From Thioalkalivibrio sp. ALJ21 (GTDB lineage: Bacteria > Pseudomonadota > Gammaproteobacteria > Ectothiorhodospirales > Ectothiorhodospiraceae): a stretch of DNA of 64,000 bases. Numbering within the stretch: position 1 is the stretch's first letter; each line of letters starts with the position of its first letter. This document shows positions 31,750 through 54,181 of this stretch, piece by piece. A program made the position numbers and the translations under genes. The notes beneath the pieces were generated by a model, which saw nothing but the letters and a program-made list of their open reading frames with translations, did not search any database and had not been told where the DNA came from. The stretch is taken from NCBI RefSeq assembly GCF_000378605.1, contig NZ_KB905158.1, forward strand, positions 186,001 to 250,000, read 5' to 3'.

Positions 31750-31778
31750 TTGTTTACGTATTGCGTTTGTAGTATAGT
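31750..31778 (+). promoter_or_regulatory. Promoter of the cytosine methyltransferase gene
   Basis: TTGTTT (31750-31755), a 17-base spacer and TATAGT (31773-31778) read toward the ATG at 31807. The preceding 230 bases (31518-31749) are AT-rich for the window and contain no gene I can support. Confidence 0.55.
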
Positions 31779-31806
31779 GTATTCATCGAAACAAGGGAGA
31801 AGGGAC

Positions 31807-33207
31807 ATGGCTGGTGGCGCGGTTATCTATTCGAAAATTGGCGAGCATCGAGGTCGGAAGCGGCTGTGGCTGGAAGGGGGGCATCTGGCTCGCGCTGGCA
31901 TCGAGCCGGGGCAGACGTTTGAGCTCTCCCCGCTGACTCGCAAGCCGGGCGGGGCCGCCCAAGGCATCACTCTTTCGTTTACTCCCGCCGGCGACCGGAA
32001 GGTTTACCAGCGCAAGAGGCGGGACCGCATCTTCCCAGTGATCGATCTTAAGCATGAGGAGATCGAGAAGATCCTGGGTGGCGCCGAGCGAGTGCGCGTG
32101 GTGGTCCAGAGCGGCCGCATCGAAGTAACCCTCCACCATCACGATGCCGCCACGCGGAACCGCTCCCAGACACTGAACGGCCGGATCGAGCGGGGCCTTC
32201 CCGTGCGAATTGGGTCGCTCTGCCATGGTGGCGGCGTGCTGGACCACGCCCTGCATAGCGGCCTCAAATCAGCTGGAATCGATTCAACGCTTGCATTTGC
32301 GAACGAGGTCGATGGCCACTACTTGAGTGCCTCCTTGGAGCGCAATCCGGTCTGGAGCGACAAAAGCGTCGCGATCGAATCCCCGATGCAGGAGATCGAA
32401 TGGGGGACCCTCCCGGCGATCGATCTCCTGGTGGCGGGTATCCCGTGCACTGGCGCATCCAAATCAGGCCGCACGAAAAACCGGCTCGCGAACGCCGAAG
32501 ATCACGAGACCGCCGGGGCCCTCTTTGTTTCTTTCTTGGCCGCCATTCAGTCGCTCAATCCGTCTGTGGTGATCTTGGAGAATGTCCCCGAGTACGGGAA
32601 CACGGTGAGTATGACGGTGATTCGCTCCGTGATGGCGAGCCTTGGGTACAGCTTGCACGAGTCCGTTCTAGATGGTTTCGAGCTGGGCGCTCTCGAGCGG
32701 CGGAAACGTTTCTGCCTTGTCGCCACGAACGAGGACATCCCGTTCGAATTCGGATCCCTTCGACCGATTCGTCAGCGCGAACAGCGGATTGCGGACGTGC
32801 TGGAGCCCATCGCCCTGAACGACCCCCGATGGAAGTCCTACGACTACCTCGCCAACAAGGAGGCGCGGGACAAGGCCGCCGGCAAGGGCTTTCGTCGGCA
32901 GCTCCTGACCGGCACCGAGTCCTCGCTCGGCACCATTGGTCGCGGCTACTACCGCGTGCGTAGCACTGAGCCCCAGATCCAGCACCCGGTCGACCCGAAC
33001 CTTTCGCGCCTGCTCACCCCGACCGAGCACGCCCGGGTTAAAGCGATCCCCGAGAAGCTGATTCACGGGCTGAACCCGACCCGCGCGCACGAGATCCTCG
33101 GCCAGTCCGTTATCCATTGCGCTTTCGAGGCAGTGGGGCGTCACTTGGGGCTTGCACTGAAAACGCTGGGCGCGCAGCAGCCCCTCCCGCTGGCGCATGC
33201 CTGCTAG
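31807..33207 (+). CDS. DNA (cytosine-5) methyltransferase with extra N-terminal domain
   Basis: This 466-residue protein starts at ATG 31807 behind GGGAGAAGGG. Residues 1-130 form a strand-rich domain (G-x-H-R-G-R-K-R-L-W-L-E-G) reminiscent of small AbrB-like folds. The catalytic part follows: a G-S-L-C-H-G-G-G SAM-binding turn near 140, the catalytic P-C of A-G-I-P-C-T-G near 211, I-L-E-N-V near 257, and E-R-R-K-R-F near 298. The C-terminus holds R-L-L-T-P-T-E-H and G-Q-S-V, which close the fold. C5 methyltransferases protect DNA from restriction. No cognate endonuclease is adjacent, so it may be an orphan. Confidence 0.88.
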   Translation: MAGGAVIYSKIGEHRGRKRLWLEGGHLARAGIEPGQTFELSPLTRKPGGAAQGITLSFTPAGDRKVYQRKRRDRIFPVIDLKHEEIEKILGGAERVRVVVQSGRIEVTLHHHDAATRNRSQTLNGRIERGLPVRIGSLCHGGGVLDHALHSGLKSAGIDSTLAFANEVDGHYLSASLERNPVWSDKSVAIESPMQEIEWGTLPAIDLLVAGIPCTGASKSGRTKNRLANAEDHETAGALFVSFLAAIQSLNPSVVILENVPEYGNTVSMTVIRSVMASLGYSLHESVLDGFELGALERRKRFCLVATNEDIPFEFGSLRPIRQREQRIADVLEPIALNDPRWKSYDYLANKEARDKAAGKGFRRQLLTGTESSLGTIGRGYYRVRSTEPQIQHPVDPNLSRLLTPTEHARVKAIPEKLIHGLNPTRAHEILGQSVIHCAFEAVGRHLGLALKTLGAQQPLPLAHAC

Positions 33208-33425
33208 GGCTCTGGAGCGATCAGGAGTCCATCCCCCCGCGGGGGTGGGCCGCTCGAAGCACCGGTTGCACTGGCTGGCGCCGGCCCCGGAAATGCTCGA
33301 ATGTGATGCATGACCGGATGCATCAAAAGATATGAAAGCACTTTGGAAGATTTCCTCAACTGTATGTATTCAGATCATTTATTGAGCGCTTGGCGTCAGC
33401 GCCAAGGCGCCCGGAGGACTCCCTC

Positions 33426-33956
33426 ATGAGTAAGCCCACCCTGTCATTCTCTTGGGGCGATCTGCGCCCCCTGATTGAGCACACCCGCAAGGCGGCGAAA
33501 TGGCAACCGACGTTTGCCGAGCGGATTGACTACCTGCTTCAGAGCGGGGAGGCGAAGAACGAAGACGAAGCCTTCCGGGTTTGCTCTGATCCCGAGCGCG
33601 ACTGGAGTGCGGCCGGGTCGCCGGGCATTTTCCTCGTGGGCGATCGCGGCGTGTATATGATGAGCAGCGGGCTGCCGGATCTGATCGACCCGGCGAAAGG
33701 ATCGCCCCATCGGCAGGTCGCCTACGCGAAAGGGGCGGACCCGGATGCCGATCCGGAGTGGTACGACCTAAAGGTCGCAACGTTTGGGGGTGACGACGGG
33801 GTCGACAAGATCCCACTGGACTTCTTTACGTCCGTTGAGGCGGAACACAGCCCCTCGGATGACGACTGGGTTCACGTCAGCTTCAGCCAGAACCGCATGG
33901 AGATCACGTTCGAGAAAGCGCGCCCGGTCAAGAAAGGGGGTCCAAGTGTTCGATGA
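33426..33956 (+). CDS. DUF3085-type protein
   Basis: This 176-residue protein has an ATG behind GGAGG. It has the features I associate with DUF3085: a helical N-terminus R-P-L-I-E-H-T-R, a central P-G-I-F-L-V-G-D-R-G-V-Y-M-M-S-S-G segment, V-A-Y-A-K-G-A-D-P, and A-T-F-G-G-D-D-G-V-D. The role of the family is unknown, but it is common on proteobacterial plasmids, from memory. Its end overlaps the PilZ gene by 11 bases. The C-terminal R-P-V-K-K-G-G-P-S-V-R is basic but not the tag. About 220 bases upstream (33208-33425) hold a GC-rich hairpin (CCCCCGCGGGGG) and no gene. Confidence 0.75.
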   Translation: MSKPTLSFSWGDLRPLIEHTRKAAKWQPTFAERIDYLLQSGEAKNEDEAFRVCSDPERDWSAAGSPGIFLVGDRGVYMMSSGLPDLIDPAKGSPHRQVAYAKGADPDADPEWYDLKVATFGGDDGVDKIPLDFFTSVEAEHSPSDDDWVHVSFSQNRMEITFEKARPVKKGGPSVR

Positions 33957-34932: not shown

Positions 34933-37713
34933 ATGGCAGTTAACCAGGGAAGGATTATGGGGGGGCTCGAGGAGGCCGTGACGGGCCCGGATGACGAGTT
35001 CATCTACCGTTTCCTCGACATCTACGGATTTCCGCGCGCGACTGTCACGCAGCTGAAGCAGGGGACCGGCAACCGCAACGCAGCCACCGAGCCCGGCGCG
35101 GTGGCCCTGAAGCGGAAGATCTACTTCCTCCCGGTTGCGCCCGGTGACGACATCCACGCAACGCACGAAGCCCTGCTGAAGTCGGGCCGTCTGGAAAAGC
35201 ACGACATCCGTTTCACCCTGGTCACCGACTTCAAGACGGTGCTCGGTTACGACCGCCGCCTGAACGACCCACTCGACTGCGGCTACACCGAACTCCACCG
35301 CAACTACGGTTTCTACCTGCCGCTGGCGGGTGTCGAGCGTGTTCGCATGCACACCGAGGCCATTGCGGACGAGAAGGCCGCGGACCGGATGGGGCGGCTG
35401 TGCGACCAGCTCCGGGACCGAAACCCAACCGAGACCCCGGACGAGATCCATCGCCTCAACGTCTTCATGGCGCGGCTGTTGTTCTGCCTGTTTGCCGAGG
35501 ACACCGGGATCTTCCGGCCCCATCAGTTCACCGAGGCCTTCCTGAGCCACACCCAGGAGGACGCCTCCGACGCACACGATTTCCTGCGGGCGCTGTTCCG
35601 GGTCCTGAACCAGCCGGAAACCTCCCGCGGTGACGACGTCCCTGCACACCTGGACGCATTTCCTTACGTCAACGGCGGCCTGTTCTCGAACGATCTTCCG
35701 GTTCCCGAGATGGGCGCCCGGGCCCGACGCCTGATCCGCGATGCCGGGAAGCTCGATTGGTCGCAGATCAACCCCGACATCTTCGGCTCAATGTTCCAGG
35801 CGGTCATCGATCCCTCCCAGCGCGGAAGCCTTGGCCAGCACTACACATCGGTCAGCAACATCATCAAGGTGCTGCGACCCCTGTTCCTCGATGAGATGTA
35901 CGCGGAACTGGAGAAGGCGAGGGGAAACCGGAGGCGGCTGAACCGGCTCCTCGAGCGCATTCACAGCCTCAAGGTGTTCGACCCCGCATGCGGCTCCGGG
36001 GCCTTCCTGATCATCGCCTACAAGCAGCTTCGCCGCCTGGAGATGGCGATCTTCGAGGCGATGGACGGACTGAACGGCAACGGGGCCGGTGAGCCCCTGG
36101 TGCCGGATGTTCAGAACGAGATGTTCGACCGCCCCGGGCAACAGCCACTCATGACGCAGCAGGGCCAAGGCGAAATCTTCATGTCCGGGATCCGTCTGGA
36201 GCAGTTCTACGGCATCGAGATCGACGACTTCGCCCACGAGATCGCACTGCTGTCGCTTTGGCTGGCGGAGCACCAGATGCACGCCGAGTTCGAGGAAAAG
36301 TTCGGTCATGCCGAGCCGATGCTGCCACTGAAATCCAGCGGGAACATCGTGCTAGAGAATGCTCTCCGGGTGGACTGGCGCACGGTCTGTGACCCCTCTA
36401 GCGCCGAGGTTTTCGTTTGTGGCAACCCCCCATTTCTTGGCGCCAATAGGCGCTCGGAAAGCCAAAATGCGGATATGGCGGCGGTTTTCTCGGGGTTTCG
36501 AACCTACCGCTATCTGGATTTCGTGGCCTCCTGGTTCTGGAAGGCCGCGCAGTACCTCCAGGGGACCTCGAACCATGCGGCGCTCGTGTCCACGAACTCG
36601 ATCTGCCAGGGGGTCCAGGTGGACATGCTCTGGCCGCCAATTTTGGGCCTGGGCATCAAGATCGAGTTTGCCTACCAGACCTTCCCGTGGAGCAATCACG
36701 CTAAGGGAAATGCCGGCGTTCACGTCATTGTCGTGGGCTTGAGCGCCGCCCCAGGCCCGAGGCGCCTATTCCAATTGACGAACCAGGAGTGGCGCGTCTC
36801 CGAGGTCAACAACATCAGCCCCTATCTTCTAGAGGGTGGCAATACCGTCGTGCGAGGACGGTCGCGACCGTTTCAAAACGCGGCGCCTCTCGTGTACGGA
36901 AACAAGCCGACGGATGGCGGCCACTTGCTGCTGTCTCCCGCAGAGAAAAAGGAGCTGGTACAGCGCGATCCCGCGGCCGCCCGGTGGATCCGCCGACTGG
37001 TGGGCGCGGAAGAATTCCTCAATGGACAGGAGCGATGGTGCCTATGGCTCAACGATGCCGCAGAAACCGATATTGAGTCGATGCCAATGATCGCGGAGCG
37101 TACGAGAAGGGTTCGCGAATTCAGACAGAAGAGCACGAAACAACACACCCGAGACCTCGCGAACACTCCCTCCGTCTTCGGCCAGATCCGACAAAACACA
37201 TTGCAGGATTATATCGTCGTCCCACGCGTAACATCGGAGCGGCGAGAGTACGCCCCAATTGGCTTTATGGATGGCTCCGTCATCGCCACGGATCTCGTCA
37301 ACATCATCCCCGGGGCCACCTTCTACGAGTTCGGCATCCTCTCGTCACGCATGCACATGGACTGGCTGCGGCTGGTTGGTGGACGCCTGAAGAGCGACTA
37401 CCGCTATTCCGCCAAGCTGGTCTACAACACCTTCCCGTGGCCGGCGCACACCCCCGCCCAACGCCAGGAGATCGAAGCGCTGGCGGAGGAGGTCTTGCTG
37501 TCTCGTGAGGACACCTTCGATCTCACGCTCGCGCAGATGTACGATCCCGACAAGATGCCGGATGGCTTGCGCCGCGCACATCAAGCTCTGGATGAAGCCG
37601 TGGAACGGCTCTTCCGAAAACGCCCGTTCCGCGACATGGCGGAGCGTCAGCAATACCTGCTTGCGCGCTACGCCGAGCTGGTCGAGGACGAACAGAGGAA
37701 GGGAGGCTCCTGA
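34933..37713 (+). CDS. MmeI-like (type IIG-related) DNA adenine methyltransferase, nuclease part degenerate
   Basis: This 926-residue protein starts at ATG 34933 behind GGGGAG. It has an N-terminal region ending in I-R-F-T-L-V-T-D-F that matches the tail of the MmeI nuclease domain, but no D-x(n)-E-x-K nuclease motif is visible before it. The methyltransferase core shows F-D-P-A-C-G-S-G-A-F near residue 346 and N-P-P-F near 498 (gamma-type, adenine-N6). The region from about 36360 to 37250 is probably the target-recognition part and has different base composition. It begins a three-gene cassette with a helicase and a GIY-YIG protein. Confidence 0.85.
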   Translation: MAVNQGRIMGGLEEAVTGPDDEFIYRFLDIYGFPRATVTQLKQGTGNRNAATEPGAVALKRKIYFLPVAPGDDIHATHEALLKSGRLEKHDIRFTLVTDFKTVLGYDRRLNDPLDCGYTELHRNYGFYLPLAGVERVRMHTEAIADEKAADRMGRLCDQLRDRNPTETPDEIHRLNVFMARLLFCLFAEDTGIFRPHQFTEAFLSHTQEDASDAHDFLRALFRVLNQPETSRGDDVPAHLDAFPYVNGGLFSNDLPVPEMGARARRLIRDAGKLDWSQINPDIFGSMFQAVIDPSQRGSLGQHYTSVSNIIKVLRPLFLDEMYAELEKARGNRRRLNRLLERIHSLKVFDPACGSGAFLIIAYKQLRRLEMAIFEAMDGLNGNGAGEPLVPDVQNEMFDRPGQQPLMTQQGQGEIFMSGIRLEQFYGIEIDDFAHEIALLSLWLAEHQMHAEFEEKFGHAEPMLPLKSSGNIVLENALRVDWRTVCDPSSAEVFVCGNPPFLGANRRSESQNADMAAVFSGFRTYRYLDFVASWFWKAAQYLQGTSNHAALVSTNSICQGVQVDMLWPPILGLGIKIEFAYQTFPWSNHAKGNAGVHVIVVGLSAAPGPRRLFQLTNQEWRVSEVNNISPYLLEGGNTVVRGRSRPFQNAAPLVYGNKPTDGGHLLLSPAEKKELVQRDPAAARWIRRLVGAEEFLNGQERWCLWLNDAAETDIESMPMIAERTRRVREFRQKSTKQHTRDLANTPSVFGQIRQNTLQDYIVVPRVTSERREYAPIGFMDGSVIATDLVNIIPGATFYEFGILSSRMHMDWLRLVGGRLKSDYRYSAKLVYNTFPWPAHTPAQRQEIEALAEEVLLSREDTFDLTLAQMYDPDKMPDGLRRAHQALDEAVERLFRKRPFRDMAERQQYLLARYAELVEDEQRKGGS

Positions 37714-37714
37714 T

Positions 37715-39814
37715 ATGCCCACAGACCTGATCCGCGTGGAGTACGGACGAACCGGAAAGAGCGCGAAGACGAACGAAATGGGGATGCGGGAGATGCAGGC
37801 GCGCGCCTTCGAATCCCGTGACCGGCAATACCTGCTGATCAAGGCGCCGCCCGCATCGGGGAAATCCAGAGCCCTGATGTTCATCGGCCTCGACAAGCTC
37901 GTGAACCAGGGAGTAGAGAAGGCCATTGTGGCGGTGCCGGAACGCTCCATCGGATCCTCGTTCAAGGACACGGCATTGTCGGATCGCGGATTTTTCGCGG
38001 ACTGGAAGGTGCGGCCGGAACACAACCTGTGCACGGCCGGCTCGGACTCGGGAAAGGTCGACGCTTTCTCGCGATTCATGGCCTCAAGGCCCAAGGCCCT
38101 CGAGGACCGCGCACTCGTCTGCACGCATGCCACCCTGCGATTCGCCTACGACCGCCTGGGCCCGGAGGCTTTCAACAGCGTTGTGGTCGCGATCGATGAG
38201 TTCCACCACGTCAGTGCCGATGAGGACAACCGCCTCGGCGCCCTGATCGACGGACTCATGCACCGGTCGACGGCCCATGTGGTGGCCATGACTGGGAGCT
38301 ATTTCCGTGGCGATACGGTCCCGATTCTCCAACCGGACGACGAGGAGCTGTTCGACAAGGTCACCTACACCTATTACGAGCAACTCAACGGCTACCAGTA
38401 TCTGCAGTCGCTGGGGATCGGATATCACTTCTACCAGGGGCGCTATCTCGATGCGGTGAAGGAGGTCCTCGATACCGATCGCAAGACCCTGATCCACATC
38501 CCCAGCGTGAATTCGGCCGAGTCGACCGCCGACAAGTACGGAGAGGTCGACGCCATCGTGGACGCCATCGGTGACGTGGATCACCAGGATCCAGAGACCG
38601 GTTTGCTGCATGTTCGGCGACGGACCGATGACCGCATCGTCAAGGTGGCGAACCTGGTCGAAGACGAGCTGAGCCACCGGACCCGCGTGATGGATTTCCT
38701 GCGCACGGTGTCCGAGCGCGAAGACGTGGATGTAATCATTGCACTGGGAATGGCAAAAGAGGGCTTTGACTGGCCCTGGTGCGAGCACGTTCTGACGATC
38801 GGCTACCGGCGCTCCATGACCGAGGTGGTCCAGATCATCGGGCGTGCGACCCGGGACGCCCCGGGCAAGACGCATGCGCAGTTCACGAACCTGATTGCGC
38901 AGCCGGATGCGGAAGACGACGACGTGAAACACGCCGTTAACAACATGCTCAAGGCCATTACGGTCTCGCTCCTGATGGAGCAGGTGATGGCCCCAACGTT
39001 TCGCTTCCGCCCCCGAGAGCCGGGGAACCGATTCCTGGCGGAGCCCGGCACCATTCAGATCGGCGATCCGGGAGGCCCACCGCCGAGCAAGAAGGTCCTT
39101 GAGGCCCTTAATTCGAGCGGGGACGACATCATCGCCGAGCTCCATCAGAAGCCGGAGGTGGCCACGGCTGCGATCGACCCGAGCATGGATAACGCCTACG
39201 CCAGCCAGGTGGAGCTGCCCAAAATCATTCGGCAGCGGCACCCGGATCTGTCGGAGGACGAGGTCGAGCAGGTGCGCGCCGGCATCCAGACTCAACTCAG
39301 CATCAATTCCCTGGGCGGCCTCGTGAGCGAGGAGGACCTCCCTCCGGGCGCGGAGATTGTCTCAGGGGACGACATCCCGATCCCGAACCCCGGGGAATCA
39401 AAGCCTCTCTCCGGGGATGGATATGACGAACCACCGGATGCCGACCGGCCAAAGCCACCCACGGGAGACCCCGGCGCCGGTACCCGGCAATTCGTCCAGA
39501 TGGGCAATAAGTTCGTGAACATCGAGGACTTGGACCTCGACATGATTGACCAGATCAACCCGTTCCGCGGGGCGTTCGAGGTCCTCTCGAAATCGGTCAC
39601 GGCTTCGATGCTCAAGACCATTCAGGACGTGGTCCGGGGGCGCCGGATCCAGATGAGCGAGGAGGAGGCTGTCGTGCTGTGGCCGAAGATCAAGGCCTTC
39701 AAGCGCGCGCATGACCGCGAACCCTCGATGCACGCCAGCGACCCCCTTGAGGTTCGCTACGCCGAGGCCCTGGCCTACATCCGCAACAAGAAGCGCGAGC
39801 GGGCACAGGCCTAA
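37715..39814 (+). CDS. SF2 DEAD/DEAH-like helicase of the modification cassette
   Basis: The ATG at 37715 lies one base after the methyltransferase stop, with AGGAAGGGAGG upstream. The 699-residue protein has motif I A-P-P-A-S-G-K-S at about 43-50, motif II I-D-E-F-H near 160, motif III-like A-M-T-G-S, motif V-like A-K-E-G-F-D-W-P and motif VI Q-I-I-G-R-A-T-R-D near 370. The C-terminal 200 residues are acidic and contain a helical module ending in A-L-A-Y-I-R-N-K-K. DEFH in place of DEAD/DEAH is seen in restriction-type helicases. It probably couples ATP hydrolysis to DNA translocation. Confidence 0.88.
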   Translation: MPTDLIRVEYGRTGKSAKTNEMGMREMQARAFESRDRQYLLIKAPPASGKSRALMFIGLDKLVNQGVEKAIVAVPERSIGSSFKDTALSDRGFFADWKVRPEHNLCTAGSDSGKVDAFSRFMASRPKALEDRALVCTHATLRFAYDRLGPEAFNSVVVAIDEFHHVSADEDNRLGALIDGLMHRSTAHVVAMTGSYFRGDTVPILQPDDEELFDKVTYTYYEQLNGYQYLQSLGIGYHFYQGRYLDAVKEVLDTDRKTLIHIPSVNSAESTADKYGEVDAIVDAIGDVDHQDPETGLLHVRRRTDDRIVKVANLVEDELSHRTRVMDFLRTVSEREDVDVIIALGMAKEGFDWPWCEHVLTIGYRRSMTEVVQIIGRATRDAPGKTHAQFTNLIAQPDAEDDDVKHAVNNMLKAITVSLLMEQVMAPTFRFRPREPGNRFLAEPGTIQIGDPGGPPPSKKVLEALNSSGDDIIAELHQKPEVATAAIDPSMDNAYASQVELPKIIRQRHPDLSEDEVEQVRAGIQTQLSINSLGGLVSEEDLPPGAEIVSGDDIPIPNPGESKPLSGDGYDEPPDADRPKPPTGDPGAGTRQFVQMGNKFVNIEDLDLDMIDQINPFRGAFEVLSKSVTASMLKTIQDVVRGRRIQMSEEEAVVLWPKIKAFKRAHDREPSMHASDPLEVRYAEALAYIRNKKRERAQA

Positions 39815-39818
39815 CCGG

Positions 39819-41048
39819 ATGCCTCGATACCGCTCCCTCGATGAGGTGCTTTCAGAGCCCGACGATCAAGGGCTCCTGGACGTCCGGGCGGCAGGCACCC
39901 AGCTGTCGCCATCAGACCGGATTCGCGATGCCTTTGAGGCCATCAACGCGTTCGTAGACACGCATGGCAGGGCCCCAACGAACGAAGGCGACCTGAGCGA
40001 AAAGACCCTGCATCGACGGCTGCAGCGGATTCGGGCCTCGAAAGGGGCCCATGAGAACCTCCTGAGTCTCGACCGGCATCACCTCTTGGGCAGTGACGGC
40101 GGCGAGGGGGCTCCATCCCGAGACGCAGCCTCGCACGCGGAATCCCTCGAATCCGACGTCGAGAACCTTGACGACATCCTGCTGGATGATGACCTCGGCC
40201 TCCTGGATCTTGGTGATGAGTCCATCCTCGCTTCGCGCTGCCCGGCAGGGGACCGGCCATCGGGGAATACACCTCCGGACGGCATTGCGCAGCGGCGCCC
40301 ATGCGAGGAGTTCTGGCGTTTCGAGCCCCTGTTCGAGCGGATGCGGAATCGACTCGAATCCGGCGATGCCGAAAGCCGTCGATTCCAGTACGAAACCAAG
40401 ATCGACGTGGGCGATTACTTCATCGTATATGGCTTGCTGTGCCTGGTGGACTCGGTGGCGGATCCGCGAATGGAGATCGACCCCGCCAACCCGCGCTTGA
40501 GGGTGGTGTTCGACAACGGAACCGAGACCAATCTGTTGAAGTTCTCGCTGGGCAAAGCCCTGTATGCCGACGAGAACGGCCGGCGCATCATCGACCCGGA
40601 CCTCGAGGCCGACCGCATGGCGGGCGTAAGCCATCACGATCACCGCAGCGGAACGATCTACATCCTTCGATCTCGCAGTCCGCACCCATCCCTGAAAGAA
40701 CACCGAGACCTCGTGAAGATCGGCTACACGGAAGGGGAGGTCGCGGATCGCATCCGCAACGCCGAGAACGACCCGGCCTTCCTCGAGGGGCCCGTGGAGG
40801 TCGTGGAGTCCTTTGCCTGCTACAACCTGGACCCACGGAAGTTCGAAGGCCTGGTGCACGGTTTCCTGGCCGACCGGCGCCTGGATATTCAGCTGAGGAG
40901 CAAGAAGGGGCGTGTATTCAGGCCGAGAGAGTGGTTCTCGGTGTCACCGCAGACGGCCGTTCAGGTCGTTGAGGCCATCGTCGACGGGAGCATCACCCGA
41001 TACCGCCTCGATCCGATCTCCGGACGCTTCCTCGCGCGCGAAAAATAA
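39819..41048 (+). CDS. GIY-YIG (T5orf172-like) nuclease-family protein
   Basis: This 409-residue protein starts at ATG 39819, five bases after the helicase stop. Its first 90 residues include H-G-R-A-P-T-N ... L-H-R-R-L-Q-R-I-R, a helical module similar to the helicase's C-terminus. A variable linker follows. The C-terminal 130 residues hold T-I-Y-I-L-R-S near residue 279, V-K-I-G-Y-T-E-G-E-V-A-D-R-I near 310 and a later F-E-x-L-V-H-G-F, consistent with the T5orf172 branch of GIY-YIG, where a Tyr and Glu replace classic residues. It could supply DNA cleavage for the cassette. Confidence 0.82.
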   Translation: MPRYRSLDEVLSEPDDQGLLDVRAAGTQLSPSDRIRDAFEAINAFVDTHGRAPTNEGDLSEKTLHRRLQRIRASKGAHENLLSLDRHHLLGSDGGEGAPSRDAASHAESLESDVENLDDILLDDDLGLLDLGDESILASRCPAGDRPSGNTPPDGIAQRRPCEEFWRFEPLFERMRNRLESGDAESRRFQYETKIDVGDYFIVYGLLCLVDSVADPRMEIDPANPRLRVVFDNGTETNLLKFSLGKALYADENGRRIIDPDLEADRMAGVSHHDHRSGTIYILRSRSPHPSLKEHRDLVKIGYTEGEVADRIRNAENDPAFLEGPVEVVESFACYNLDPRKFEGLVHGFLADRRLDIQLRSKKGRVFRPREWFSVSPQTAVQVVEAIVDGSITRYRLDPISGRFLAREK

Positions 41049-41112: not shown

Positions 41113-41448
41113 ATGAACGCATCCACATCGTCTTTCATTCGCACGATTGCCAAGGTCATTCATGAGTTCCGCAAGCACGACCCTCAGATGCCCATGCAGA
41201 CCGCGGCGATCTTTCTCGAGGTTGCTGCGCGACCCGGGATCACCATGAAAGATCTCGGGAGTCGGCTCGGCGTCGCCCAATCAACCTGCAGCCGAAACGT
41301 CTCCGCCCTCTCGAGAATGAGCCGAAACGACAACCCGGGACTCGATCTCGTAGAGGCCCGAGAGGATCCGTCTGAGCGGCGCAGGAAGCAGGTTTGGCTC
41401 ACGCCCAAGGGCAAGCTGCTAGCCCTTTCCCTGGAAGATGTCGGTTAG
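41113..41448 (+). CDS. Winged-helix (MarR-like) regulator, first of two paralogues
   Basis: This 111-residue protein starts at ATG 41113. It has a helical dimerisation-like N-terminus, then P-G-I-T-M-K-D-L-G-S-R-L-G-V-A-Q-S-T-C-S-R-N-V-S-A-L as the helix-turn-helix, and a wing E-R-R-R-K-Q-V-W-L-T-P-K-G-K. It shares most of these residues with the gene at 41597. The pair follows the methyltransferase/helicase/GIY-YIG cassette on the same strand and could regulate it or the downstream gene. Confidence 0.75.
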   Translation: MNASTSSFIRTIAKVIHEFRKHDPQMPMQTAAIFLEVAARPGITMKDLGSRLGVAQSTCSRNVSALSRMSRNDNPGLDLVEAREDPSERRRKQVWLTPKGKLLALSLEDVG

Positions 41449-41486: not shown

Positions 41487-41596
41487 GATAAACCACTCGG
41501 ATCGGGTAAGCTATACATTCGTCTCCTGCCTTTCTTATAGGTCAGGCCGTAATGTGGCTGTCGGGTTTTTGTGCCCGATTCCGAATGAGAACCAAC

Positions 41597-42016
41597 ATGA
41601 ACCAATCGCCATCCCGAATCATCGACAACCTTTTTCGAACGATCGCTGAATTCAGAAAATATGACCCCCAGCTGCCGATTCAGACCGCAGCCGTTTTCCT
41701 GACGGTGGCAGCGCGCCCGGGGATTACCATGCTCGACATCGGAAAGAAGCTGAATACCTCCCAGGCCTCCTGCAGCCGCAATGTTTCAGCGCTCTCGAAA
41801 TGGCGCCGCCAGGGATCCCCCGGGCTGGATGTGGTGGTCGCCAAAGAGGATCCGGCCGAACGCCGGCGGAAACAGGTGTGGCTGACCCCCAAAGGTGAGG
41901 ACCTGCTCAGGTCTATCCTGGATATCTACTCAGTCGACGATCACCAGCCCCCAATGCGAGAGGGCCCGATCATGGTCCGCGCCAACTCGATTGCTGAGCC
42001 TGAGGCCGCGCACTAA
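41597..42016 (+). CDS. Winged-helix (MarR-like) regulator, second paralogue
   Basis: The ATG at 41597 gives a 139-residue protein closely matching the preceding one: E-F-R-K-[Y/H]-D-P-Q-[L/M]-P-[I/M]-Q-T-A, P-G-I-T-M-L-D-I-G-K-K-L-N-T-S-Q-A-S-C-S-R, then E-R-R-R-K-Q-V-W-L-T-P-K-G. It has about 25 more C-terminal residues. Differences in the recognition helix (A-Q-S-T versus S-Q-A-S) suggest different operator preferences. Tandem duplication is the likely origin. Confidence 0.75.
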   Translation: MNQSPSRIIDNLFRTIAEFRKYDPQLPIQTAAVFLTVAARPGITMLDIGKKLNTSQASCSRNVSALSKWRRQGSPGLDVVVAKEDPAERRRKQVWLTPKGEDLLRSILDIYSVDDHQPPMREGPIMVRANSIAEPEAAH

Positions 42017-50370: not shown

Positions 50371-50461
50371 TGGCGGAGAATCAGGGATTCGAACCCTGGA
50401 GACGGGGGTACCGTCTACTCCCTTAGCAGGGGAGCGCCTTCGACCACTCGGCCAATTCTCC
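50371..50461 (-). tRNA. tRNA-Ser (GCT)
   Basis: Class II cloverleaf with long variable arm; anticodon loop CTGCTAA; T-loop GGTTCGAATCC. Discriminator G and CCA are encoded. Last gene of the array in transcription order. Confidence 0.95.
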
Positions 50462-50467
50462 TTGAGC

Positions 50468-50558
50468 TGGCGGAGAGAGAGGGATTCGAACCCTCGAAGC
50501 AGGTTTGCTGCTTACACGCTTTCCAGGCGTGCGCCTTCGACCACTCGGCCACCTCTCC
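50468..50558 (-). tRNA. tRNA-Ser (GGA)
   Basis: Class II cloverleaf; anticodon loop CTGGAAA; CCA encoded. Six bases separate it from the next tRNA, so processing from one transcript is expected. Confidence 0.95.
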
Positions 50559-50926
50559 GGGTTGAAACGATGAAATAGGGGGATGACGACGCCAGCCTTT
50601 CCGCTTTTGGTTATCGGTTCAGGCGTCAGCCCATTCGGACTGAACTCGGTTGGCCCTGGCTCGGAGCTCGGTCGTTACCCCGGGCCCCAAAACCACTCGC
50701 TCCTGACCCCTGGACAGGGTGGGAGTTGGCAATCGACTCACCTATTGGCGTGAGCCGACCCGACGCCTGGGTTCCCCCGGCGCCAGACTGTGCCCAGCGT
50801 TCGATCTGGACGGGATTTTCACCGAGAGGCCAGCACCATAGGCTGTTGACTCGGCTACTGAACACCGCCATCCGGAATGAGCCCGATGAGCCGGGCATCC
50901 CATTCCGCATGGCGGGGCATCGAAAA
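50559..50926 (-). ncRNA. 368-base tRNA spacer rich in hairpins
   Basis: No gene is supported here. Several stems can be drawn: CTCAC/GTGAG near 50736-50753, CCCT/AGGG near 50714, CAGC/GCTG near 50831-50846. A long hairpin at 50865-50915 pairs CCGCCAT and CGGAATG with CATTCCG and ATGGCGG around an inner GCCCG/CGGGC. Its position between tRNA-Leu and tRNA-Ser suggests a processed structured RNA or a stabilising spacer. Confidence 0.45.
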
Positions 50927-51013
50927 TGGTGCGCAGGGCGGGACTCGAACCCGCACAGCCTCGCGGCCACTAGCCCCTCAAGCTAGCGTGTCTACCAATT
51001 CCACCACCTGCGC
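50927..51013 (-). tRNA. tRNA-Leu (GAG)
   Basis: Class II cloverleaf; anticodon loop TTGAGGG in a CTAGC/GCTAG stem; discriminator A with encoded CCA. Confidence 0.95.
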
Positions 51014-51020
51014 GCATACA

Positions 51021-51218
51021 TCATCGACGACCCGAATAGGTCGCCCGTTTGCTGCTCTCACCCTGATCGCCGCGAGAAGCGGCACTTTTTTCTCGCCGGG
51101 CCCGCTCCAAGAGCGCCCTCCGGCACCATGACGAAATCGTAACCCCGGCGATCTCGGCCGCCTGCCGGACTTCTTCGTTCTCGTAAGGCTGGAGACTGAT
51201 CGAAAGCTTCTTCCTCAT
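51021..51218 (-). CDS. Ribbon-helix-helix-like small protein (65 aa)
   Basis: This 65-residue protein lies between tRNAs, with a purine-rich GGGGG upstream. Its N-terminus, R-K-K-L-S-I-S-L-Q-P-Y-E-N-E-E-V-R-Q-A-A-E-I-A-G-V-T-I-S-S-W-C-R, has the strand-helix-helix pattern of ribbon-helix-helix regulators. The C-terminus is basic (S-K-R-A-T-Y-S-G-R-R) and could aid DNA or RNA binding. It is likely expressed with the tRNA transcript. Confidence 0.7.
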   Translation of the reverse strand: MRKKLSISLQPYENEEVRQAAEIAGVTISSWCRRALLERARREKSAASRGDQGESSKRATYSGRR

Positions 51219-51254
51219 GGCGTTGCCCCCTGCGTTTCGTTGCCGCTATGAAAT

Positions 51255-51343
51255 TGGCGGAAGTGGAGGGATTCGAACCCCCGGGCGAGATTCCCGCCTC
51301 CGGTTTTCAAGACCGGCGCCTTTGACCGCTCAGCCACACTTCC
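51255..51343 (-). tRNA. tRNA-Ser (TGA)
   Basis: Class II cloverleaf; anticodon loop CTTGAAA; discriminator G; CCA encoded. Confidence 0.95.
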
Positions 51344-51381
51344 AGATTTCGTGCACCCCCGCTTTCGCCAGGGTCGCTCAT

Positions 51382-51471
51382 TGGCGGAGAGAGAGGGATT
51401 CGAACCCCCGGGCGGGCTTCCCCGCCTCCTGTTTTCGAAACAGGCGCCTTCGACCGCTCGACCATCTCTCC
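51382..51471 (-). tRNA. tRNA-Ser (CGA)
   Basis: Class II cloverleaf; anticodon loop TTCGAAA; CCA encoded. With GCT, GGA and TGA this gives the four serine isoacceptors commonly found in gammaproteobacteria. Confidence 0.95.
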
Positions 51472-51478
51472 TGCATCG

Positions 51479-51564
51479 TGGTGGCCCCAGAGGGACTCGA
51501 ACCCTCACACCCATGGGGTAGCGAGTTTTGAGCTCGCCGCGTCTACCGATTCCGCCACAAGGCC
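51479..51564 (-). tRNA. tRNA-Leu (CAA)
   Basis: Class II cloverleaf; anticodon loop CTCAAAA in a GCGAG/CTCGC stem. The acceptor stem GGCCTTG/TGGGGCC contains three G-T pairs. CCA encoded. Confidence 0.92.
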
Positions 51565-51576
51565 TTGTTGATTCCG

Positions 51577-51837
51577 CTATTGATTCTGTGCCTCGTGGCG
51601 CTCCCGGCACTCGACGCACTGCCCCCACCCCCGGTCCGCACGCACTTTCGGCAGCGTATTGCCGCATTCCGCGCAAGAGGGCTTCCCGTCGATGTAGACC
51701 GGGGCAGGGTAGTCCGAGACGCGCTGGCGGATCTGCCGCGCACGCATCTCTTCGTCATACTCCATTTGTTCTGCCGTTTGATCGCAGGGGTCTGGCACCT
51801 GTTGATCCTCGCTGTGTCTGGGGCCGGTAATGCTCAC
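51577..51837 (-). CDS. TraR/DksA-type zinc-finger protein
   Basis: This 86-residue protein has a helical N-terminus (T-A-E-Q-M-E-Y-D-E-E-M-R-A-R-Q-I-R-Q) and a C4 zinc finger C-A-E-C-G-N-T-L-P ... G-W-G-Q-C-V-E-C near the C-terminus. That is the typical short TraR form found on plasmids and phages. TraR binds RNA polymerase and mimics DksA with ppGpp, lowering rRNA promoters and raising others. Its position inside a tRNA array is suggestive, because it could shift expression in favour of the element. Confidence 0.85.
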   Translation of the reverse strand: MSITGPRHSEDQQVPDPCDQTAEQMEYDEEMRARQIRQRVSDYPAPVYIDGKPSCAECGNTLPKVRADRGWGQCVECRERHEAQNQ

Positions 51838-51854
51838 CCGGTGCCGCTAAATGA

Positions 51855-51941
51855 TGGTGCGAACGGAGAGACTCGAACTCTCATGGGTTTTACCCCACTG
51901 GGACCTAAACCCAGCGCGTCTACCAGTTCCGCCACGTTCGC
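51855..51941 (-). tRNA. tRNA-Leu (TAG)
   Basis: Class II cloverleaf; anticodon loop TTTAGGT; discriminator A; CCA encoded. Confidence 0.95.
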
Positions 51942-51995
51942 TTTCTTATAAAATGAACAAACTATTTCTCGTAATCAGCTGATAATGCACGATTA

Positions 51996-52072
51996 TGGTG
52001 GGCCCACCAGGGCTCGAACCTGGGACCAACGAATTATGAGTTCGCTGCTCTAACCAACTGAGCTATAGGCCC
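51996..52072 (-). tRNA. tRNA with CAT anticodon (elongator Met or Ile2)
   Basis: Standard cloverleaf; anticodon loop CTCATAA; CCA encoded. It begins GGGCCTATAGCTCAG. Sequence alone does not settle whether the C34 is modified to lysidine (Ile2) or the tRNA reads AUG. Confidence 0.92.
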
Positions 52073-52117
52073 GGACTGGTCGACCGCGGCGCGCGGTGCG
52101 CAGCCTTCGGTTTTGTT

Positions 52118-52194
52118 TGGCGTCCCCGAGAGGAATTGAACCTCCAACCTGCGGCTTAGGAGGCCGCTGCTCTATCCGGTTGAGCTACGGAGAC
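52118..52194 (-). tRNA. tRNA-Arg (CCT)
   Basis: Anticodon loop CTCCTAA; discriminator G; CCA encoded. It reads AGG, which tagged genes use often in their C-terminal arginines. Confidence 0.95.
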
Positions 52195-52201
52195 AGTTGC
52201 A

Positions 52202-52277
52202 TGGCACCCCGGGAGGGACTCGAACCCCCAACTTGCGGTTTTGGAGACCGCTGCTCTACCAATTGAACTACCGAGGC
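52202..52277 (-). tRNA. tRNA-Trp (CCA)
   Basis: Anticodon loop CTCCAAA; encoded CCA end. The first acceptor pair is G-T. All other stems are regular. Confidence 0.93.
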
Positions 52278-52286
52278 GTGGAATTC

Positions 52287-52362
52287 TGGTGGGGCCTCGG
52301 GGGCTCGAACCCCGGGCCACGCGGTTAAAAGCCGCATGCTCTACCAACTGAGCTAAGGCCCC
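52287..52362 (-). tRNA. tRNA-Lys (TTT)
   Basis: Anticodon loop CTTTTAA; GGGGCCT acceptor; discriminator A; CCA encoded. Confidence 0.95.
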
Positions 52363-52367
52363 GAATA

Positions 52368-52443
52368 TGGTGTCCCTACGGGGACTTGAACCCCGGTTTC
52401 CGCCGTGAGAGGGCGGCGTCCTAGACCACTAGACGATAGGGAC
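52368..52443 (-). tRNA. tRNA-Glu (CTC)
   Basis: Loop CTCTCAC in a CCGCC/GGCGG stem, the usual Glu anticodon stem but with CTC rather than TTC; CCA encoded. It reads GAG only. Confidence 0.93.
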
Positions 52444-52450
52444 TGAATGG

Positions 52451-52527
52451 TGGCGCGCATAGGAGGACTCGAACCTCCAGCCTGCAGCTTAGAAGGTCGC
52501 TGCTCTATCCGGTTGAGCTACATGCGC
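52451..52527 (-). tRNA. tRNA-Arg (TCT)
   Basis: Loop CTTCTAA; discriminator G; CCA encoded. The anticodon stem GCGAC/GCTGC has one A-C mismatch and one G-T pair. With the CCT tRNA the array covers AGA and AGG. Confidence 0.9.
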
Positions 52528-52718
52528 AGGAACCTTTGGCCATCGGAGCCGTTTTCGATCCGGCCGCATGACTGCAGCGCGATGGAAAACGACTCCGGGC
52601 TCTTCCTCAGTTGCGCTTTCACTCGATTCCGGGCGCAGCGTGTCTTGGCTTGATGGGCATGCGATTTCGCCAGGATCGGCGATCGCGCCACAGGATTTCG
52701 CCGTTTGTTCGGCTTCAT
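52518..52718 (-). CDS. Small basic protein inside the tRNA array (66 aa)
   Basis: An ATG at 52718 follows GGAGG at ideal spacing and opens a 66-residue, strongly basic frame (K-P-N-K-R-R-N-P-V-A-R ... H-Q-A-K-T-R-C-A-R-N-R-V-K-A-Q-L-R-K). The stop lies ten bases inside tRNA-Arg (TCT). A nucleic-acid-binding role is plausible, as is a fortuitous frame. It is the only candidate gene in the 240-base gap. Confidence 0.45.
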   Translation of the reverse strand: MKPNKRRNPVARSPILAKSHAHQAKTRCARNRVKAQLRKSPESFSIALQSCGRIENGSDGQRFLRM

Positions 52719-52767
52719 GCTGACCTCCAGGGGAATGGGGCGCCTAATGCACCCGATCTCGGATTAA

Positions 52768-52842
52768 TGGCTGGGCCGGCAGGATTCGAACCTGCGCATG
52801 CCGGGATCAAAACCCGGTGCCTTACCGCTTGGCTACGGCCCA
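52768..52842 (-). tRNA. tRNA-Gln (TTG)
   Basis: TGGGCCGTAGCCAAG start typical of Gln; anticodon loop TTTTGAT; CCA encoded. Confidence 0.95.
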
Positions 52843-52845
52843 ATT

Positions 52846-52922
52846 TGGTGCCTGCGGGAGGACTCGAACCCCCAGCCGTCGGATTACAAATCCGCTGCTC
52901 TACCATTTCGAGCTACGCAGGC
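52846..52922 (-). tRNA. tRNA-Thr (TGT)
   Basis: Anticodon loop TTTGTAA; discriminator A; CCA encoded. The D arm is slightly irregular (AGCTCGAAATGG). Confidence 0.93.
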
Positions 52923-52999
52923 TCGCTTCAACCCTCAAGCCCGTCCGGAGCCGAATCGCTTTCGGGACCGAACGGAAGCCTGCGGCCTGTTGCTGAATT

Positions 53000-53076
53000 T
53001 GGTCGGGGAGGAGGGATTCGAACCCCCGACATCCTGCTCCCAAAGCAGGCGCGCTACCAGACTGCGCTACACCCCG
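53000..53076 (-). tRNA. tRNA-Pro (TGG)
   Basis: CGGGGTGTAGCGCAG start typical of Pro; anticodon loop TTTGGGA; CCA encoded. Confidence 0.95.
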
Positions 53077-53118
53077 AAACGCCGTCCTAATATGCGGGCC
53101 CCGGCGCGGACCCTAAAG

Positions 53119-53195
53119 TGGTCGGGATAGCTGGATTCGAACCAGCGGCCCCGCGCCCCCCAGGCGCGTGCTCTACCAAGCTGAGCTATACCCCG
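53119..53195 (-). tRNA. tRNA-Pro (GGG)
   Basis: Anticodon loop CTGGGGG; CCA encoded. Its first 23 bases overlap the end of the small gene at 53173-53436. Confidence 0.95.
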
Positions 53196-53436
53196 AAACG
53201 TGCAAATCATCTCCCATGCCGGCCCCGGTCACCCGCAGGCGCGACGCTTCAAAACCATCATGACCAACCGAACGCTCCTCAGCGATGCGGTCGACGTACC
53301 CACAGAGATACTCGTCGTGATCCTCGACACCCGCCGGGACGGTGACGATGAGGGTTCGAGGCATTGGCTGCCCAAAGGCGTCTTCATCGACATCCCAGAA
53401 GATCGGTTGGATACAGTATTTGCGCTCTTCACTCAC
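53173..53436 (-). CDS. Small hypothetical protein in the tRNA array (87 aa)
   Basis: The GTG at 53436, after GGAGGGCTCAGGG, starts 87 residues with convincing composition: Y-C-I-Q-P-I-F-W-D-V-D-E-D-A-F-G-Q-P-M-P-R-T-L-I-V-T-V-P. Its stop falls inside tRNA-Pro (GGG). Processing of that tRNA would cut the mRNA, so protein and tRNA production may compete. I do not recognise a family. Confidence 0.6.
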   Translation of the reverse strand: MSEERKYCIQPIFWDVDEDAFGQPMPRTLIVTVPAGVEDHDEYLCGYVDRIAEERSVGHDGFEASRLRVTGAGMGDDLHVSGYSSAW

Positions 53437-53463
53437 CCCTGAGCCCTCCCTGGTGGCGGTTGA

Positions 53464-53540
53464 TGGTTGCCCGGGCTGGATTTGAACCAGCGACCCCGCC
53501 CTTATCAGGGGCGTGCTCTGACCAACTGAGCTACCGGGCA
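53464..53540 (-). tRNA. tRNA-Ile (GAT)
   Basis: Anticodon loop CTGATAA; discriminator A; CCA encoded. Confidence 0.95.
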
Positions 53541-53562
53541 TGAAATCACGATCTGAACCGAC

Positions 53563-53648
53563 CATCCTGAAGGGTGCGCCCTAGAGCAAAGAGCGACCGT
53601 TCCTGGGAGAAGGGGCCAGTGATGTGTTAAGGCGCACCCTTCAGGATG
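53563..53648 (-). ncRNA. 18-bp perfect hairpin stem between tRNA-Ile and tRNA-Ala
   Basis: The 18 bases at 53563-53580 are exactly complementary to 53631-53648, enclosing a 50-base loop that itself can form CTGG/CCAG. In the transcript this would be a very stable hairpin. It may be a processing signal or small RNA. There is no T-run, so it is not a standard terminator. Confidence 0.55.
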
Positions 53649-53671
53649 TCGAGTCGTTTCGCGGTTGAAAT

Positions 53672-53747
53672 TGGTGGAGCCAGTCGGGATCGAACCGACG
53701 ACCCCCTGCTTGCAAAGCAGGCGCTCTCCCAGCTGAGCTATGGCCCC
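53672..53747 (-). tRNA. tRNA-Ala (TGC)
   Basis: Anticodon loop TTTGCAA; GGGGCCA acceptor; CCA encoded. Adjacent to tRNA-Ile (GAT), the same pair found in rRNA operon spacers, though in the opposite order. Confidence 0.95.
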
Positions 53748-53763
53748 GAATCTGCAGAACCAC

Positions 53764-53897
53764 CCAGGAGTACGCTTTAGCGTGGCGCGAGCCGTGCCCC
53801 CGGGATCCGTAATCCCGGTACTGAGCACCTGCCCCCACAGGTTCGCTCAGCCCCCTGTACACGGCCGCCTGTGCCGACAGCCAAAGCGCACTCCTGG
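53764..53897 (-). ncRNA. 134-base multi-stem structured RNA
   Basis: The ends pair over 15 positions with one mismatch (53764-53778 with 53883-53897). Inside, GCCGTG pairs with CACGGC and encloses two hairpins: CGGGAT/ATCCCG, and CTGAGC-ACCTG with CAGGT-TC-GCTCAG. A CTGT/ACAG hairpin lies near the 3' base on the plus strand. This nested architecture is far more ordered than a random spacer. It lies between tRNA-Asn and tRNA-Ala and would be transcribed with them. Confidence 0.6.
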
Positions 53898-53918
53898 ATG
53901 GACCTGCAACTGCTTGGT

Positions 53919-53993
53919 TGGCTGGCGTGGTAGGGATCGAACCTACGACCATCCGGTTAACAGCCGGACGCTCTGCCGCTGAGCTACACGCCA
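53919..53993 (-). tRNA. tRNA-Asn (GTT)
   Basis: TGGCGTG acceptor; anticodon loop CTGTTAA; discriminator G; CCA encoded. Confidence 0.94.
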
Positions 53994-54059
53994 TCCATTT
54001 CGATGCCTTCGGCGCGGTTCTGGCTTAGACGACCATCCGAGCGACGAAGGCGGATAAGG

Positions 54060-54145
54060 TGGAGGGTTCAGGATTTGAACCTAGGCTGGCAAGACAATCA
54101 CCGGTTTGCGCACGCCAGCCGACGAACCAACACGCCATCCCCTCC
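54060..54145 (-). tRNA. tRNA-like sequence with abnormal anticodon arm
   Basis: The acceptor GGAGGGG/ACCCTCC, a D-stem GGCG/CGTC with a GG-containing loop, and a T-loop TTCAAAT are present. The anticodon arm is anomalous: a GGCTGGC/GCCAGCC stem would enclose 23 bases, or a GCTGG/CCGGT stem a 10-base loop. The 3' end reads ACCT rather than ACCA. It may be a decayed tRNA, one with an insertion, or a tRNA mimic. Confidence 0.35.
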
Positions 54146-54181
54146 AGAGCGACCGCATTCGTTATGCAGTCACATGGAATT

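Follow-up and report, generated by a model that had tools for sequence, protein, structure and literature searches.

A DnmA-YeeB-YeeC-like gene trio of Thioalkalivibrio sp. ALJ21 as a probable restriction-modification cassette split over three genes

What becomes of an MmeI-like methyltransferase whose nuclease site is missing and whose gene is followed, within a few bases, by genes for a helicase and a GIY-YIG protein? The question is raised by positions 34933-41048 of a 64,000-nucleotide stretch of DNA from Thioalkalivibrio sp. ALJ21 (assembly GCF_000378605.1, contig NZ_KB905158.1, positions 186,001 to 250,000), which in its full length we call the window. A preliminary description of this DNA had proposed a restriction-type cassette in which the third gene supplies in trans the nuclease activity missing from the first. 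We consider it likely, as the best explanation of the trio as a whole on the sequence evidence, that the three genes form an ATP-dependent restriction-modification (R-M) cassette with its three activities split over three genes. Loss of the ExK residues, co-occurrence of the genes and invariant GIY-YIG residues all speak for the earlier proposal, which stands as a probable one. The accompanying statement that no described system has exactly these parts did not survive, as the set is known as DnmA-YeeB-YeeC, was noted by 2009 and was studied in 2020 and 2023.

The trio and the missing nuclease site

On the forward strand the three genes follow one another head to tail, and all three frames are open. 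The first encodes a putative MmeI-family gamma-class N6-adenine methyltransferase and target-recognition protein, DnmA/YeeA-like, of 926 amino acids (aa; 34933-37713), the second a putative YeeB-like superfamily 2 (SF2) helicase or translocase of 699 aa (37715-39814) and the third a putative YeeC-like T5orf172/GIY-YIG nuclease protein of 409 aa (39819-41048). The order and the gaps of 1 and 4 bases given in the preliminary description are exact. The helicase gene starts with ATG at 37715 and the GIY-YIG gene with ATG at 39819, alternative longer open reading frame (ORF) starts of both running into the preceding gene, and in the window nothing is inserted between the methyltransferase and helicase genes.

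All five MmeI domains of Pfam (MmeI_N, MmeI_hel, MmeI_Mtase, MmeI_TRD and MmeI_C) score above cut-off in the first protein, with E-values of 2e-98 for MmeI_Mtase, 5e-78 for MmeI_TRD and 1e-19 for MmeI_N. The protein matches MmeI in the PDB (5hr4) at E 2.6e-195 and carries FDPACGSGA (methyltransferase motif I, residue 349) and NPPF (residue 498). Among PADLOC models that for type IIG fits best (E 1.9e-290), followed by DISARM DrmMI (1.4e-42), MADS mad2 (5.5e-18) and PglX (6.3e-7). The catalytic residues of MmeI are V69-D70...E80-M81-K82 (PMC4833311). Alignment with 20 ExK-bearing stand-alone relatives reveals a remnant of the PD-(D/E)XK core at residues 55-70 of the window protein (GAVALKRKIYFLPVAP; 35095-35142, forward strand), in which the D, E and K columns are occupied by A56, L66 and V68. 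The D..ExK nuclease site is absent from the window methyltransferase at the MmeI-aligned catalytic columns, which bears out the earlier remark that no D-E-x-K motif is visible, and looking by alignment for an intact nuclease site in this gene, the finding that was to overturn the proposal, turned up none.

The same absence is seen in the helicase-linked relatives. A methyltransferase search of 369 genomes of the window's class gave matches in 46, and 39 regions were fetched around a part of these matches. Helicase and GIY-YIG homologues adjoin the methyltransferase in 10 of the 39 regions, an eleventh (L054; loci are designated by L numbers) ends inside the helicase gene, and the other 28 have neither homologue in the fetched flanks. 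In the N-terminal alignment all 20 evaluable stand-alone MmeI-like proteins carry D-E-K, and none of these 20 has a helicase or GIY-YIG match in its fetched flanks; ExK is found in 0 of 104 evaluable helicase-linked methyltransferases and likewise not in the window. These 104 are the 110 rows labelled as trios besides the window, less six that are gapped at the site; L185 and L191 are identical, and the label denotes linkage to a helicase, the GIY-YIG gene being out of view in a few such loci. Seven of the 39 class regions (L054, L056, L062, L065, L066, L068 and L069) were left out of the count, the N-terminus of the methyltransferase being truncated or disrupted. Twelve of the labelled rows are from the class, and two of these, L040 and L053, come from one fragmented genome with no helicase match on the short contigs and were labelled from their N-termini; other contigs of that genome later gave GIY-YIG fragments, and without the two rows the count is 0 of 102. 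In a maximum-likelihood tree of 120 methyltransferases of at least 700 aa the 17 stand-alone rows, all from the window's own class, form one clade (Shimodaira-Hasegawa-like approximate likelihood ratio test 100); the method was a quick one and the drawn root is arbitrary, so that the tree does not tell loss of the nuclease from gain. The reciprocal pattern of nuclease site and helicase linkage supports the reading that activities have been divided among the proteins.

The second protein scores above cut-off for Helicase_C and below it for DEAD and ResIII. It has GKS (motif I) at residues 49-51, the DEFH of the preliminary description at 161-164 and QIIGRATR at 373-380, and none of the residues checked in GKS, DEFH, TGS and QxxGRxxR varies among the 129 aligned family helicases. 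The aligned sets of helicases and of GIY-YIG proteins each consist of the window protein, ten class members and otherwise proteins with a minimum length of 600 aa (helicase) or 360 aa (GIY-YIG), and because of these thresholds shortened copies are missing from the invariance counts. With motif I already at residue 49, there is no room in the helicase for an N-terminal nuclease domain. An AlphaFold2 model (predicted local distance difference test, pLDDT, 76.1; predicted template modelling score, pTM, 0.63) retrieved SF2 helicases in Foldseek, including HsdR of EcoR124I (rank 14, E 2e-8). PADLOC matches are weak (best PbeA, E 5.5e-7; DrmA, 0.013), and a search for solved structures with the helicase profile gave nothing useful.

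The third protein matches T5orf172 (E 2e-13) and MUG113 (E 1e-14) in Pfam, and in PADLOC the candidate family PDC-S57 only (E 3e-7). Its GIY-YIG catalytic domain spans residues 276-390 (40644-40988, forward strand), where the half-motifs, the Arg and the Glu are all found (Y281, K300-x-G302, R311 and E343); these residues together with G278 are invariant in 123 of 123 aligned third proteins. The AlphaFold2 model has a mean pLDDT of 83.7 and a pTM of 0.49, and in ten-residue means the domain reaches 84 for residues 271-280 and 92-97 for residues 281-390. DNA cutting has been shown for Odn (Gp88), a T5orf172 protein of phage ICP1, and depends on a Glu that is described as the conserved residue of GIY-YIG nucleases (PMC8263062). 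Both motor and cutter look intact in the window, and their activity is predicted.

An alignment scan of genome contigs with the helicase gave at least 550 relatives, of which the best 80 were kept. They span Pseudomonadota, Bacteroidota, Actinomycetota, Planctomycetota, Spirochaetota, Campylobacterota, candidate phyla and a Methanosarcinaceae archaeon. All three genes are present in 69 of these 80 named loci; the remaining 11, each with one gene out of view, are at contig ends, where nine lack the methyltransferase (no more than 2,406 bases upstream) and two the GIY-YIG gene (no more than 37 bases downstream). Among 43 helicase loci from IMG/VR, 30 are complete, nine lack the methyltransferase (at most 956 bases upstream) and four the GIY-YIG gene, one of these at a contig end; an earlier scan of viral contigs with the window GIY-YIG protein alone gave eight pattern matches, none a relative by tblastn, and the helicase alignment was used in its stead. 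Methyltransferase and helicase genes are at most 100 bases apart in 65 of the 105 loci that have both, and in one (L126) the methyltransferase gene comes after the GIY-YIG gene. A GIY-YIG profile found matches in 13 of the 369 class genomes, 12 of them with the methyltransferase as well; the match in the thirteenth starts at a contig edge. Linkage is strong from each of the three anchors (methyltransferase, helicase and GIY-YIG), and the lack of co-occurrence that would have counted against the cassette was not observed.

Plasmids carry the set as well. The helicase matches 261 plasmid records, in 147 of which at least 80% of it is covered, and an annotated trio on Nitrosococcus oceani plasmid A is 56%, 63% and 47% identical to the three window proteins; other annotated plasmid trios were found, one with its methyltransferase annotated in pieces. 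Seventeen of the 60 helicase matches listed are partial matches in Acinetobacter baumannii plasmid records (residues 4-167, about 4-160, or 155/172-694). In the literature, genes named ATPase, yeeB and yeeA are listed beside blaOXA-23 in Tn2006. Plasmid pTK9001 of Thioalkalivibrio sp. K90mix has a short GIY-YIG gene (L195:8920-9351) with DNA 79% identical over 296 bases to that of the window; no MmeI-type methyltransferase or directly adjacent helicase is annotated beside it, and it is possibly the remnant of a close relative of the window trio.

Recognition, a shared module and a dead-methyltransferase variant

The target-recognition domain occupies residues 635-838 (36835-37446, forward strand; MmeI_TRD). 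The published specificity code of MmeI (PMC4833311) was transferred to it through the alignment of the window methyltransferase with 5hr4, the residues at the code positions being K736, G750, Q751, Y655, K658, R765, D787, L788, R824, K820 and D822; site positions 1 and 2 were read by hand from the alignment. Y655 and K658 map to C at position 2, R765 and D787 to G at position 3, L788 with R824 to G at position 4, and K820 and D822 to G at position 6, with A at position 5 as the methylated base. Position 1 is ambiguous, being C by K736 while A would fit Q751, and the predicted site is 5'-(C/A)CGGmAG-3'. The window's own genome has 1737 forward and 1752 reverse copies of CCGGAG, and 2785 and 2591 of the pattern read backwards, counts that have no bearing on function because methylation of a single strand gives no simple expectation.

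The likeness that the preliminary description saw between the C-terminus of the helicase and the N-terminus of the GIY-YIG protein proved to be real. Residues 645-693 of the helicase (39647-39793, forward strand) and 28-75 of the GIY-YIG protein (39900-40043, forward strand; predicted helices 31-49 and 59-73) align with an hhalign probability of 94.2% (E 1.1e-7), whereas six control segment pairs reach at most 3.5%. The profiles also cross-match in both directions, that of the helicase module with 25 GIY-YIG proteins and that of the GIY-YIG module with 55 helicases (E up to 1); beyond these two kinds of protein, one weak 90-aa ORF was all that the module profiles matched in these loci. In four named trios, including those of Staphylococcus saprophyticus and Ligilactobacillus salivarius, 4 of 4 helicases and 4 of 4 GIY-YIG proteins match the profile of their own module, the cross-matches being weaker (3 of 4 and 1 of 4). 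YeeB and YeeC of Bacillus subtilis are reported to be without C-terminal stretches found in Vibrio crassostreae (PMC9973331).

Two trios from IMG/VR, L173 (6378-13944) and L181 (6380-14030) (also L196 and L197), join a dead MmeI-like protein with a double C5 methyltransferase and a small helix-turn-helix gene. In their MmeI-like proteins, which are 62% identical to each other, motif I reads NPDSSSG and motif IV reads NTQY; the recognition domain is kept (250 and 237 bits), and the helicase and GIY-YIG proteins keep all checked motif residues. Both loci lie on mobile elements, with G+C contents of 0.54 and 0.44. The ORFs that they have in common are those of the trio, of a C5 methyltransferase in convergent orientation (83% identical), of a small helix-turn-helix protein of Cro/C1 type and of distant serine recombinases, the remaining matches being frames that overlap those genes or a second helix-turn-helix match. 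Further members of this variant were sought: a viral scan returned the same two contigs, and a strict search of 398 Pseudomonadota genomes (E up to 1e-120, run without a positive control) returned none. The best plasmid matches to the dead MmeI-like protein are about 31% identical. These data suggest that in this variant the MmeI-like protein may act as a specificity subunit.

The C5 enzyme of L173 and L181 is double; its halves, each catalytically complete, share 53-54% identity within one protein and are 51-58% identical to two plasmid methyltransferases beside HindVP-family restriction genes. The site of HindV itself is GRCGYC. The MmeI code predicts GRCGAC for the MmeI-like proteins of both loci, which are identical at 11 code positions; position 3 of this prediction rests on one residue and position 1 on two of three, and at MmeI 752, the residue in contact with position 5, they have I or V. 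GRCGYC is also recognised by BsaHI, a system with enzymes similar to those of HindVP, which for its part showed no cutting (PMC2413257). The predicted GRCGAC nearly matches the site of the HindV/BsaHI family, and this comparison is suggestive and not a blind one, because it was drawn after the HindV annotation had been seen and for two loci. In a limited literature search we recognised no description of the shared module or of the dead-methyltransferase variant.

Weighing restriction against other roles

In the mechanism that we favour, the MmeI-like protein would recognise an asymmetric 6-bp site and, as is usual for its family, methylate a single adenine, on one of the strands. Where the DNA is unmodified, this protein would serve as a specificity subunit engaging the YeeB-like helicase, which would translocate on the DNA, and the YeeC-like GIY-YIG protein, substituting for the lost PD-ExK nuclease, would cut. 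Because one-strand marking leaves unmarked daughter sites after replication, the cassette probably escapes self-cutting in the manner of type III and type ISP systems, through a requirement for two sites in opposite orientation or for a collision of translocation. The shared module may dock the helicase and the GIY-YIG protein onto a common partner, or both proteins may bind DNA alike. In V. crassostreae, deletions of dnmA and yeeB are reported to have raised sensitivity to some phages (PMC9973331).

The spot between the methyltransferase and helicase genes exceeds 100 bases in 39 of the 105 loci and repeatedly holds unrelated cargo genes. Eight of ten representative inserted proteins have a Pfam match (RhuM, SLFN_AlbA_2 with HATPase_c_4, YhcG/DUF1016, Fic twice, Bro-N, AAA_15 and CoiA_N), and examples lie at L106:1520-2569, L125:7166-8830, L108:8451-8909 and, in a class locus, L060:10173-11231. 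RhuM, Fic and AlbA_2 genes are found within hsd operons, for which our literature search gave no confirmation. The toxin-antitoxin system DarTG2 has been described inserted within a type I system (PMC12255303), and we count the cargo, as resembling that insertion, for a restriction role.

Several points weigh against such a role. In B. subtilis the deletion of dnmA left plasmid transformation unchanged (PMC7261158), and the deletion of yeeB or yeeC left killing and plating by three phages unaltered, the authors speaking of a relic (PMC9973331). Seven of the nine named loci without a methyltransferase show 1.2-2.4 kb upstream of the helicase and no piece of that gene, so that it is not adjacent to the helicase there. 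In six of the seven the gene beside the helicase belongs to a cargo family (YhcG, Fic, AlbA_2 or RhuM type; in L117 weakly), and since such families elsewhere separate the two genes the methyltransferase may lie past the contig end. In three IMG/VR loci (L163, L192 and L193) the helicase is shortened and a stretch of at least 5 kb downstream holds no GIY-YIG gene; these loci look like broken copies. Across the whole family Lys replaces the canonical Tyr of YIG, a variant described for R.Hpy188I (PMC2630997). The whole GIY-YIG model found no significant match in the PDB by Foldseek (best E 0.027; EF-P- and PWWP-like matches were insignificant and were not used), so that the fold assignment rests on Pfam and motifs, and the profile of the third protein found no solved GIY-YIG structure by sequence. 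Finally, the dead-methyltransferase variant is present in two loci only, and both the need for two sites and the docking by the module are matters of inference.

The Bacillus results would also fit an orphan epigenetic methyltransferase that acts in gene regulation beside helicase and GIY-YIG genes left over from a dead restriction system, all the more as the loss of methylation there alters gene expression (PMC7261158, PMC9973331). We think this unlikely, as the window frames are open, the checked helicase and GIY-YIG residues are invariant family-wide and linkage across phyla is not expected of relics; moreover, L173 and L181 present the opposite pattern, having lost the methyltransferase motifs and yet kept those of helicase and nuclease. 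Alternatively, the helicase and GIY-YIG proteins could block foreign DNA without site-directed cutting, by BREX-like exclusion or as a cell-harming effector, with methylation as a self mark; the BREX methyltransferase PglX doubles as a specificity factor (PMC11341690), and the window methyltransferase does score on DrmMI, mad2 and PglX, though far below type IIG. The weak PADLOC matches of the helicase, the match of the third protein to PDC-S57 only, the invariant GIY-YIG catalytic set and the proven nuclease activity of Odn, another T5orf172 protein, make this quite unlikely to our minds.

Type IV systems with GIY-YIG nucleases exist, none having been seen for the trio family, and on that model the helicase and GIY-YIG proteins would act on modified phage DNA or DNA structures with the methyltransferase as an unrelated passenger; as the neighbouring methyltransferase, where in view, is at evaluable rows always of the nuclease-less subgroup, we regard this as very improbable. 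Hardly more credible is a cryptic type IIL enzyme, a methyltransferase that itself still cuts through a nuclease site elsewhere. The fold of the nuclease domain is probably kept, since Pfam still recognises MmeI_N, but ExK is missing from 104 of 104 evaluable helicase-linked members and DnmA is without endonuclease activity according to Morgan 2009, as cited in PMC7261158.

It may further be asked whether these trios represent a distinct R-M architecture, a reading to which we give even odds. The primary role of the MmeI-derived protein would then be that of a specificity subunit, serving a translocase and a GIY-YIG nuclease that are proteins of their own, and methylation would be a replaceable addition. 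In the L173/L181 lineage protection would have passed to the double-headed HindV-like C5 methyltransferase, whose heads would each act on one strand of a common asymmetric site, and the shared module would be a common docking piece.

Neighbouring genes and known systems

Directly downstream of the trio are two tandem, mutually similar MarR-like genes (41113-41448 and 41552-42016, forward strand). Accessory genes elsewhere in the window are a C5 methyltransferase (31750-33204), DUF3085 (33390-33953) and a HipA-like gene (20926-22188). The MarR-like genes, DUF3085, a small putative lipoprotein and a nucleotidyltransferase have no match at E 1e-4 among the ORFs of L032-L193, where the C5 methyltransferase has three weak matches only, in L181, L173 and L156; on these grounds we take the cassette to consist of three genes. 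The C5 methyltransferase matches DrmMII of PADLOC at E 2.3e-20. Further along are an N6/N4 methyltransferase gene with a weak Mrr_N match (55297-56553) and 21 tRNA genes clustered in about 4 kb (50371-54255, reverse strand). A plasmid origin of the contig was considered from weak megablast similarity and a TraI_2 match on another contig, neither of which settles it, and a 16S search of the organism's own genome gave no match.

Compared with classified R-M enzymes, the window methyltransferase is homologous to type IIL MmeI over the methyltransferase, recognition and C-terminal domains. MmeI, however, cuts as a single protein, whereas the window protein is without PD-ExK and has its helicase and nuclease in separate genes; with A56, L66 and V68 in place of the N-terminal D..ExK it is not assigned to type IIL. 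The trio may be likened in mode to the type ISP enzymes LlaGI and LlaBIII, in which nuclease, translocase, gamma-class methyltransferase and target-recognition domain act from an asymmetric site (PMC3874165). Those are single polypeptides with an Mrr-like nuclease, and three ORFs with a GIY-YIG domain do not fall in that type. The helicase model suggests that an SF2 motor fold is common to the trio and to HsdR of the type I system EcoR124I, but the trio has no HsdS, its recognition domain is fused to the methyltransferase and no nuclease precedes the motor. Odn has a T5orf172 domain with conserved Arg and Glu like the third protein (PMC8263062), but stands alone with a RepA-like DNA-binding domain and is directed at a replication origin. 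Membership in DISARM was rejected, with DrmA at E 0.013 only and no DrmB among the PADLOC matches listed for four window proteins; BREX was considered and is not claimed.

The closest counterpart is DnmA-YeeB-YeeC of B. subtilis and V. crassostreae, which has the same three protein types in the same order (PMC7261158, PMC9973331). According to both of these papers, Morgan et al. 2009 had noted MmeI homologues that lack a nuclease and have yeeB- and yeeC-like genes on their flanks. PMC7261158 gives GACGmAG as the site of DnmA, describes the neighbouring yeeB and yeeC genes and mentions that a type I-like R-M system had been suggested before, and conserved dnmA-yeeB-yeeC neighbourhoods are reported in PMC9973331. 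The features of that set recur in the window, namely a nuclease-less MmeI-family methyltransferase, a helicase gene and then a T5orf172 gene directly downstream, and conserved co-occurrence elsewhere. The B. subtilis set is likened to that of the window by published descriptions and not by direct sequence comparison; in a B. subtilis control genome MmeI_Mtase (PF20473) and T5orf172 (PF10544) are both present, and the family profiles match the helicases and the GIY-YIG proteins from two trios of Bacillota. The two differ in site, (C/A)CGGmAG being predicted for the window as against GACGmAG for DnmA. The window trio is thus a further copy of a widespread, already described and poorly understood gene set presumed to act against viruses, which has a helicase with matches in 261 plasmid records and has been labelled both a defence system and a relic. 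If confirmed, the reading put forward here would add an R-M architecture that is ATP-dependent, split over separate genes and equipped with a GIY-YIG protein for cutting, and in which the specificity of the recognition subunit can be read from its sequence.

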